Program-made: the position numbers and the translations under genes
Assembly (NCBI GenBank): GCA_900315245.1
Contig: OMYJ01000003.1
Location: 1-32,120 of the forward strand
Origin: an uncultured Bacteroidales bacterium
GTDB lineage: Bacteria; Bacteroidota; Bacteroidia; Bacteroidales; WCHB1-69
Direction of reading: 5' to 3'
DNA: 32,120 nt
Notes under the pieces: generated by a model
The model's database searches: none
Told to the model about the DNA's origin: nothing
What the model saw: only the letters and a program-made list of their open reading frames with translations
In this document: in pieces, positions 6,853 to 32,120 of the stretch
Layout of the letters: each line of letters starts with the position of its first letter
Position numbering within the stretch: position 1 is the stretch's first letter

Positions 6853-7641
6853 ATGAATGCCATAATCATCGGAATACTGCTGCCGCTGCTCGGCACGATG
6901 CTGGGCTCGGCTTTCGTCTTCTTCATGAAGAAGGAGATTCCCGACAGGATGCAGAAGACGCTGCTGGGGTTCGCCAGCGGGGTGATGGTGGCCGCCAGCG
7001 TGTGGTCGCTGCTGATACCGTCGATCGAGATGGTTGCTCCCCTTGAAGGGGAGCTGTCCGCAGGACTGAGGGGTGTGCTGCCGGCTGCCATAGGCTTCCT
7101 GGCCGGTATCGCGTTCCTCCTGCTGATTGACGAACTGACACCGCACCTGCACAGCGGCGCCCTGAAAGCCGAGGGACCGAAATCAAAGCTCTCGCGCACG
7201 GCGATGTTGGCGCTGGCCGTCACCATCCACAACCTGCCCGAGGGCATGGCCGTGGGCGTGGTCTTCGCCGGCGAAGCGCAAGGACTGACCCTCAGCGCCG
7301 CCCTCGCGGTGAGCATCGGTATCGCCATACAGAACATCCCCGAAGGCGCCATCATTTCGATGCCCATGCACGCGGAGGGCAACTCCCGTATGAAGTCGTT
7401 CCTCATCGGCACCCTGAGCGGCGTGGTGGAACCCATCGGGGCGGTGGCCATTCTGTTGCTGGCAGGTGTGCTCGGCGTGGCACTCCCCTACCTGCTGGCC
7501 TTCGCCGCCGGCGCCATGATGTATGTGGTCGTGGAGGAGCTCATCCCCGAGACCGCACAAGGCACCCACACCAACCTCTCCACGATCGGCTTTGCCATCG
7601 GCTTCGTCCTGATGATGGTGATGGATGTGGTGTTGGGGTAG
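6853..7641 (+). CDS. ZIP-family divalent metal transporter (ZupT/GufA-like)
   Basis: This 262-residue inner-membrane protein has about eight hydrophobic segments and the two ZIP signature helices, HNLPEGMAVG at 126-135 and QNIPEGAIIS at 160-169, whose His, Asn and Glu residues line the metal site. It probably imports zinc or other divalent metals. The start ATG follows the conserved end of repeat A. Residues about 62-74 (APLEGELSAGLRG) lie in an external loop and are encoded by a palindromic repeat. The first 13 codons are duplicated as a relic at 13728-13785. Downstream 7642-7798 holds no recognisable gene. Confidence 0.88.
   Translation: MNAIIIGILLPLLGTMLGSAFVFFMKKEIPDRMQKTLLGFASGVMVAASVWSLLIPSIEMVAPLEGELSAGLRGVLPAAIGFLAGIAFLLLIDELTPHLHSGALKAEGPKSKLSRTAMLALAVTIHNLPEGMAVGVVFAGEAQGLTLSAALAVSIGIAIQNIPEGAIISMPMHAEGNSRMKSFLIGTLSGVVEPIGAVAILLLAGVLGVALPYLLAFAAGAMMYVVVEELIPETAQGTHTNLSTIGFAIGFVLMMVMDVVLG
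7037..7074. repeat. Palindromic repeat inserted in frame in the ZIP gene
   Basis: CTCCCC and GGGGAG flank TTGAA (7037-7053), followed by a second small hairpin, GTCC-GCA-GGAC (7056-7065), and GAGGGGT. From memory this two-hairpin sequence resembles a dispersed element found in intergenic regions of Bacteroidota. Here it is translated within the loop between two transmembrane segments. Confidence 0.6.
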
Positions 7642-30957: not shown

Positions 30958-32120
30958 CTATCTTAGATACGGCCCCGTGACAGACCCCTTATCCTCCGCC
31001 ATCGCCTTGGGCGTTCCCTCGAAGATGATTTCTCCGCCCATCGCGCCGCCGCCGGGACCGAGTTCGATGAGCCAGTCGCAGGACTTCAGCATCTCGATGT
31101 TGTGCTCGATGAGGAAAATGGTGTTGCCCGCCTCCACCATCGTGTCGAAGAGGTTGAGGATGCGCTTGATGTCACCCGCGTGGAGACCGTCGGAGGGCTC
31201 GTCCATGATGAAGATCTTGCCCGCGTCGCGCAGGTAGGAGGCCAGTTTGATGCGCTGCAGCTCGCCGCCGGAGAGGGTGGAGAGCGACTGGTTCAGATGC
31301 AGATACCCCAAACCGACCTTGCGCAACGGTTCCAGTTTCTCGGCAATCACACTTCCGGCAAACAGCTCGGCGGCTTTGTTGGCGGTGAGGTCCATCACCT
31401 CGGCGATGTTGAGGCCGTTCACCTTGTAGGAGAGCACTTCCGGCGAATAACGCAATCCGCCGCAGGCCTCGCAGGTGGTCTCGATGGCATCCATGAAGGC
31501 CATGTCGTTGACGATGACGCCCTTGCCCTGGCAGACGGGACAGCCGCCCTTGCCGTTGAAGGAGAAGAGGTCGGCCTTGGTCTTGTTGGTCTTGGCGAAG
31601 AGCTTGCGGATGTCGTCGGCCACGTCCAGATAGGTGGCCGGGGTGCTGCGCAGACTGATGCCGATGCTCTTCTGGCTGATATAGACGATGTCTTGGTGGG
31701 ATTGTACGGGTTGTAGGGGCGAATAATTATTCGCCCCTACGGTCCGTATGGACCATGCGTTTCTGAAACATTCCATCAGAGAACTTTTTCCAGAGCCCGC
31801 CACGCCCGCGATGCCGCACATCACGCCCAACGGCAGCTTGACGGAAACATTCTTCAGGTTGTGCAGGTTGGCACTCTCCAACAGGAAGAAGCCCTTGGGC
31901 GTGCGCACCTGCTCCTTGATGGCACTCGTCGCGCTCAGCATCGTGCCCGTAAGCGTCTGACTGTGCAGCAGTTCCTCGTAGGTGCCCTCGAAGACGATTT
32001 CGCCGCCCTTCATCCCTGCACCGGGACCCATATCGATGATGTGGTCGGCGATTTTGATGATCTCCTTGTGGTGCTCCACGAGGATGACGGTGTTGCCGTG
32101 GTTCTTGAGTTTCTGCACCG
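30958..32120 (-). CDS. UvrA-like excinuclease ATPase (UvrA2 type), 3' part
   Basis: The visible 387 codons are the C-terminal half of a UvrA-family protein; the 5' part lies beyond the window. Seen are the end of the first nucleotide-binding unit (VILVEHHKEII, IDMGPGAGMKGGEIVFEGT), the second Walker A (GVAGSGKSSL), a zinc module CPVCQGKG with CEACGG, the ABC signature LSGGELQRIKLA, Walker B IFIMDEPSDGLHAGD and the H-loop LIEHN. Shorter linkers than in true UvrA and the 750-800-residue class suggest the UvrA2/drug-resistance-type paralogue. Between the Walker A helix and the next strand (IVYISQKSIG) there is an insertion of about 17 residues (IRTVGANNYSPLQPVQS) encoded by a perfect palindrome, which relatives lack as far as I recall. 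Confidence 0.9.
   Translation of the reverse strand, partial: VQKLKNHGNTVILVEHHKEIIKIADHIIDMGPGAGMKGGEIVFEGTYEELLHSQTLTGTMLSATSAIKEQVRTPKGFFLLESANLHNLKNVSVKLPLGVMCGIAGVAGSGKSSLMECFRNAWSIRTVGANNYSPLQPVQSHQDIVYISQKSIGISLRSTPATYLDVADDIRKLFAKTNKTKADLFSFNGKGGCPVCQGKGVIVNDMAFMDAIETTCEACGGLRYSPEVLSYKVNGLNIAEVMDLTANKAAELFAGSVIAEKLEPLRKVGLGYLHLNQSLSTLSGGELQRIKLASYLRDAGKIFIMDEPSDGLHAGDIKRILNLFDTMVEAGNTIFLIEHNIEMLKSCDWLIELGPGGGAMGGEIIFEGTPKAMAEDKGSVTGPYLR
31713..31754. repeat. Perfect 28-bp palindrome plus a second small palindrome inside the UvrA-like gene
   Basis: Positions 31713-31740 form an exact palindrome whose left half is GTAGGGGCGAATAA. It is followed directly by GGTCC-GTAT-GGACC (31741-31754). 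Both are translated in frame within the second ATPase unit. The base composition and symmetry are those of an intergenic repeat element, not of coding sequence. Confidence 0.75.

Follow-up and report, generated by a model that had tools for sequence, protein, structure and literature searches.

A perfect 28-bp palindrome, P28, lies within the coding frame of a class II UvrA-like ATPase gene (UvrA2) of an uncultured Bacteroidales bacterium, and is with good confidence a dispersed REP of double-foot form lodged in a predicted, presumably tolerant loop of the protein, to which it was likely delivered in trans by a RAYT. Coding REPs, even in uvrA, and coding RPEs are already known; the new element here is the sharing of one protein slot by REP families of equal length.

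The palindrome and its host gene

P28 (GTAGGGGCGAATAATTATTCGCCCCTAC; positions 31,713–31,740, without strand) has the GTAG...CTAC ends of a double-foot REP and is identical to its reverse complement, as the first-pass annotation had read from the sequence. It is the longest perfect palindrome in the window, which is the whole analysed stretch of 32,120 nucleotides, the next-longest measuring 16 bp (6,918–6,933). It had no match in 100 dinucleotide shuffles, and a palindrome scan of the window for a GT[AG]G 5' foot with a complementary C[TC]AC 3' foot returned P28 and only P28. As single-stranded DNA it folds into a hairpin with a 12-bp stem (z −8.0). Just one of its three frames is open, beginning with GTA (Val), while the other two run into TAG or TAA, so that one peptide is common to the coding copies; here, on the minus strand, it is VGANNYSPL (residues 527–535). 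An Rfam search of the window gave no match. Elsewhere in the window a short tandem repeat (7/14 nt) occupies positions 1,016–1,051.

The adjoining 14 nucleotides (GGTCCGTATGGACC; 31,741–31,754, without strand), which had been described as a second palindrome, form an imperfect inverted repeat with 5-bp arms around 4 nt and two mismatches to its reverse complement. This 14-mer was not seen in the other five P28-bearing orthologues of the same genus and probably lies outside the P28 element; as a second element it was rejected for its imperfection and by its absence from those orthologues.

The part of the host gene in the window occupies 30,958–32,118 of the minus strand, and the full gene of 786 codons extends to contig position 33,318. 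P28 lies within an open frame of 791 codons and would be translated as part of the protein, which agrees with the in-frame position near Walker A noted at first pass. The encoded protein has a UvrA fold with two ABC ATPase domains, and residues 140–261 of the 2r6f chain, which we take to be the UvrB-binding domain, are unmatched in the alignment, this domain being missing. All of the following features are on the minus strand: the Walker A motif of the second ATPase domain, recognised from sequence (GSGKSSL, residues 508–514; 31,777–31,797); the variable loop B (31,690–31,764), which holds P28 or other repeats elsewhere; the IVYISQ strand after it (residues 544–549; 31,672–31,689); the ABC signature LSGGELQ (residues 682–688; 31,255–31,275); and loop C (SYLRDAGK, residues 694–701; 31,216–31,239), which is empty here and a repeat hot spot in other loci. 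Loop B comprises 25 codons in this gene and 9 in empty orthologues, giving a net gain of 16 residues between ECF and IVYISQ rather than the 17 given earlier. In the AlphaFold model residues 527–540, between helix 511–528 and strand 544–547, have pLDDT below 50, and the P28 segment sits in a predicted loop. The available part of PMC10192343 defines class II UvrA proteins by the lack of the UvrB-binding domain and places Ecm16 (PDB 7sh1) in this class; unlike Ecm16 as described in that part, the UvrA2 orthologue group studied here carries repeat-derived loops. Protection against DNA-binding antibiotics is a further trait of the Ecm16-like class.

Strong purifying selection acts on the UvrA2 gene, which has dN/dS of 0.046–0.096 in seven of seven genome pairs, compared with 0.036–0.057 for canonical UvrA in the same pairs. 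The dS between the UvrA2 of three genomes (G002, G017 and G026) and the own gene was 0.22–0.32, against 0.98–1.87 for canonical UvrA (in one pair 0.22 against 1.87); the two were closer in G006, G010 and G014, at 0.20–0.25 and 0.29–0.37. A UvrA2 dS so far below that of UvrA in some pairs makes it probable that the UvrA2 gene itself has been exchanged between species, and suggests that this was recent, in which case the allele patterns would not all represent independent insertions.

Among 14 same-genus genes with a legible loop B, including the own gene, this loop was empty in seven (FRNAYPHPE[DEH]IVYIS), as had been predicted for related orthologues, carried a P28-type insert in six, and in one (L050) carried an unrelated repeat. 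None of the orthologues was seen to encode the same residues in non-palindromic DNA, the observation that would have spoken against an inserted element, although decay is visible at the ends of several among the six P28-type inserts. In the UvrA gene the insert comprises a further 20 nt net beyond P28, partly a tandem-like tract, and neither a target duplication nor a clean 28-bp insertion was seen there.

Dispersal of P28 and candidate movers

A search of the own genome for P28 found 41 places with at most three mismatches, 16 of them exact, and none for the reversed-pattern control. Of the 40 copies that were fetched, 31 lie, by eye, outside any long coding frame, matching the earlier expectation of many copies outside genes, and no common flank was evident by eye. 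The other nine loci (L001, L005, L010, L017, L029, L034, L038, L040 and L032) place P28 in frame within long open frames, again by eye; they represent eight distinct places, as L032 and L034 are one place at an overlapping contig end, with L034 cut by the contig start. In eight other genomes 25 of 77 fetched copies were in frame by eye, and of the 40 genus genomes searched 34 contain P28-like sequences (0 to 39 matches per genome). The dispersed copies and the empty orthologues thus support the earlier description of P28 as a mobile element, whose transposition itself we infer. Exact P28 was also found in two IMG/VR viral contigs (L405, L406 and L407). In-frame copies were noticed towards the end of an EcoRI-type methylase and within a ResIII-like helicase (L268 and L248).

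Many of the proteins containing in-frame P28 carry a T9SS type A sorting domain: 22 of 33 match TIGR04183 at E ≤ 0.01 and 21 match PF18962. A sorting-domain motif, a pattern devised for this analysis, followed P28 in the GTA phase in 23 of 117 copies (22 distinct places), against 0 and 0 for the remaining phases. Some of these T9SS domains seem to be duplicates of a single cassette, and the 22 places therefore do not amount to as many independent events.

Candidate movers were sought among Y1 and RAYT genes. RAYT-profile matches were present in 36 of 40 genomes, many of them weak and some IS200-type, and were above cut-off in two. Double-foot palindromes accompanied 11 of the 34 Y1/RAYT loci returned by searches, compared with 11 of 110 background loci, which were longer (Fisher p 0.003). 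They also accompanied 11 of 20 further loci hand-picked from the match list, among which L384 was chosen in knowledge of its adjoining REPs; all 54 loci together, including the 20 hand-picked ones, gave 22 with double-foot REPs (p 9e-6 against the background). These REPs were of GTAGAGAC-type, of GTAGAGCCG-type (in three loci) and, once, GTGGGG. One locus (L384:1281–2114) is a clean REPtron, with GTAGAGACGTTTCATGAAACGTCTCTAC on both sides of the RAYT frame, and ten loci have double-foot REPs inside the RAYT frame (L385, L389, L391, L392, L396, L192, L198, L202, L205 and L207). The P28-type REP itself was found in none of the 54 Y1/RAYT loci read, which are a part of the RAYT matches, and the own-genome RAYT-like gene (L209) has none. 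In these loci P28 did not turn up as part of a REPtron, and that reading was set aside for them. A single P28 copy was noticed near a Y1 match (G026:C48); the match is an IS200-like fragment, and a peroxiredoxin-like frame separates the two.

These observations point to P28 as a double-foot REP that would be moved in trans by a RAYT. A RAYT-type single-strand transposase would deliver it by cutting and joining folded single-stranded DNA, the tolerance of the loop would allow in-frame copies to be kept, and out-of-frame insertions would be lost through selection. It had been suggested that the element selects in-frame entry, but selection for keeping the frame, together with a permissive loop, explains the pattern.

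It is also conceivable, though doubtful, that no transposase was involved and that replication slippage, hairpin template switching and homologous recombination between species generated and spread the repeats, the loops tolerating whatever arises. Loop C and part of loop B do contain tandem arrays of 7 and 8 nt, the low dS of UvrA2 relative to UvrA suggests gene exchange, and no RAYT lies beside P28 in the loci read. Slippage, however, does not yield copies such as those of P28, which are often exact and dispersed and have no common flank by eye, and the sister families are tied to RAYT genes. Derivation of P28 as a miniature element of an ordinary IS family (IS200/IS605-like or DDE), and not from a RAYT, is unlikely. 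The own genome does encode four IS200-type Y1 genes, one scoring just under the IS200 cut-off, but no double-foot palindrome of the P28 kind lies within about 1.5 kb of any of them (L100–L103), and the GTAG foot of P28 is that of RAYT-linked REPs.

The REPs at the RAYT loci match a known system: double-foot REPs and in-frame REPs have been described for TnpAREP subclass 2.4, which is abundant in Cyanobacteria and Bacteroidetes (PMC6006769). Like the REPs of that subclass, as far as the available part of the source describes them, P28 has a GT[AG]G end with its complement at the other end, forms a hairpin and occurs in many copies, and its sister families lie beside RAYT genes and in frame inside them. 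Unlike them, P28 had no RAYT neighbour in 54 loci, and the families share coding slots in proteins that are not transposases. Intragenic GTAG REPs translated in frame are known, including in uvrA of O. terrae and Thioalkalivibrio (PMC3733652, available part), and in-frame reading, including in uvrA, is common to those REPs and P28. The present case differs from the available account in concerning Bacteroidales and a class II UvrA, in having a single loop that unrelated repeat families occupy in different species, and in showing same-slot replacement at the DNA level in two other proteins.

The likeness to the palindromic elements of Rickettsia proposed at first pass was partly borne out. P28, like the rickettsial RPEs, is palindromic and dispersed and, with the open frame running through the element, would be read in frame inside conserved proteins. 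It is nevertheless of double-foot REP form, with GTAG/CTAC feet and a Bacteroidales host, and its length of 28 bp, against the 105–146 bp given for RPEs in the available part of PMC2229807, rules out its being one.

Repeat hot spots in the UvrA2 loops

The loops of UvrA2 were compared across 81 loci, comprising the own gene and the best 80 of 95 from named genome contigs, mostly MAGs; nearly all are titled Bacteroidales, Bacteroidia or Bacteroidetes bacterium, with many from ruminants, and two (L182 and L183) are not Bacteroidales. In this set of the own and the best 80 of 95 loci, loop B was readable in 74, being empty (9 residues) in 49 and bearing inserts in 25, which by eye comprised 6 P28, 12 inverted GTTGAAT-type arrays and 7 others. 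Loop C was at least three residues longer than its 8-residue form in 19 of 80 readable loci of the same set, the inserts being by eye 6 tandem repeats of the 7-nt AATCACT, 6 of GTTGAAT-type and 7 others. In loop A, 6 of 73 readable loci of that set carried inserts classed, again by eye, as LTPNPSPKGEG-like. The inserts in the three loops thus belong to several unrelated repeat families, and every one lies within an open frame, a result partly built into the method, as sites were taken from open frames and translated BLAST pieces.

Each locus was read in its best open frame, such that a frame broken at a loop would have given an unreadable site. Unreadable rows numbered seven for loop B, one for loop C and eight for loop A, owing to divergence or contig ends. 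When the seven loop B rows were rechecked, six proved to be frames of 753–778 codons. In one locus, L160, a true frameshift or a sequencing error interrupts the UvrA-like frame in mid-contig, upstream of loop B; its loops B and C carry no insert. A single MAG (RGIG10164) contributes two UvrA2 contigs, L113 with P28 and L171 with an empty site, which may be paralogues, a strain mixture or contamination, so that the loci are not all from separate species. In L177 an expanded 7-nt tandem gives a loop C of 84 residues, in frame within the ATPase domain.

Canonical UvrA served as a control: across 30 loci of the genus, its counterparts of loops B and C differ by no more than one residue, with one row cut short; a single 15-residue insert occurs elsewhere in the protein in three of these loci, and two residues of the same in a fourth. 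A quick loop-free tree (76 rows) requires at least 6 changes of insert state for loop A, 19 for loop B and 15 for loop C, counts that are inflated by interspecies recombination and derive from a tree with weak support at 34 of 73 inner branches. Because of this weakness and of the probable gene exchange, that many independent insertions are not claimed.

For the loop A repeat, predicted folding is barely stronger than in shuffled versions (z −1.3; 18 of 200 shuffles as good), and the pattern used for this LTPNPSPKGEG repeat found nothing in 40 genomes, being so strict that it also misses the own copy. The 7-nt inserts of loop C are plain tandem repeats, which slippage without a transposase could produce; the reversed control was uninformative for them, as the sequence read backwards is nearly itself. 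When the repeat class in the UvrA gene was compared with genome-wide abundance in 14 genomes, P28 gave p 0.14 and the 7-nt tandem p 0.11. Only the 8-nt tandem class clearly tracks genome-wide abundance, with 13 partly overlapping matches in its bearer (G024) and 0 or 1 in each of the other 13 genomes.

That three loops of one gene were struck repeatedly, with canonical UvrA showing one 15-residue insert in three of 30 loci, might suggest that the inserts are selected, either tuning the ATPase or forming a binding peptide, and that the loops are functional modules. This is quite improbable given that unrelated peptides occupy the same loop, that empty alleles are in the majority (49 of 74 at loop B) and that the loop has low confidence in the AlphaFold model. 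An artefact of assembly or binning is barely credible: most loci are on MAG contigs and five own P28 copies lie less than 700 bases from a contig end (L011, L015, L032, L033 and L034), but the inserts recur across many genomes that were assembled independently, for the most part far from contig ends.

Protein slots occupied by different REP families

P28 also lies in frame in a GH2 enzyme (Pfam Glyco_hydro_2) and in a linker of a 4Fe-4S protein. Both proteins were traced through the genus, the slot classes being assigned by eye. The GH2 slot was readable in 28 of the 30 loci returned, with 10 of P28-type (one displaced), 4 of GTAGAGAC-type, 3 longer GTAGGGACG inverted pairs, 2 P28-like remnants and 9 with none. 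The Fe-S linker was read in 15 of the 30 loci returned (L354–L368), the remainder being partial, distant or bare P28 matches, and held 9 P28-type REPs (several decayed), 2 of GTAGAGAC-type and 4 with none. Slot lengths in the two proteins were divisible by three in 43 of 43 cases. The longer inverted pair of the three GH2 loci that have one (L327, L330 and L341; GTAGGGACGCG...) is REPIN-like and read in frame. The GTAGAGACGTTGC family is also dispersed, occurring in 33 of 40 genomes.

Comparison of two GH2 loci (L326 and L338) found the near flanks identical at 30 of 39 and 40 of 47 positions, and those further out at 245 and 250 of 300, with only 6 of 20 identical in the REP core between the feet, which is near chance. 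One REP family thus occupies the very position that another has in a related species. In a second pair (L328 and L336) the core agrees at 10 of 20 positions and the right flank at 38 of 47, and the left flank beside the REP has no match (5 of 21).

As P28 and the GTAGAGAC-type REP are both 28 bp long, swapping one for the other would in itself preserve the frame, and it is likely that in an established slot either can replace the other without a frame shift. Slot exchange may be an active process or serial loss and gain. A coding-repeat exchange system, in which 28-bp GTAG...CTAC REP families swap foot to foot in fixed protein slots, can be put forward only tentatively. Among the papers listed by the literature searches, which covered few subscription journals, none described equal-length REP families replacing one another at a single protein site, or these repeats in Bacteroidales.

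Earlier accounts describe coding REPs and RPEs as scattered insertions; here, unrelated repeats occupy three loops of one conserved gene in different species. It is likely that such repeats move about as small interchangeable protein inserts, and their role as raw material for protein loops becomes testable with natural alleles of one gene, with VGANNYSPL providing a marker peptide for finding such events in proteomes. If the exchange system is real, a loop peptide would change in one step, among forms such as VGANNYSPL, VETLRATSL and VETGRAPSL, with the frame never lost.
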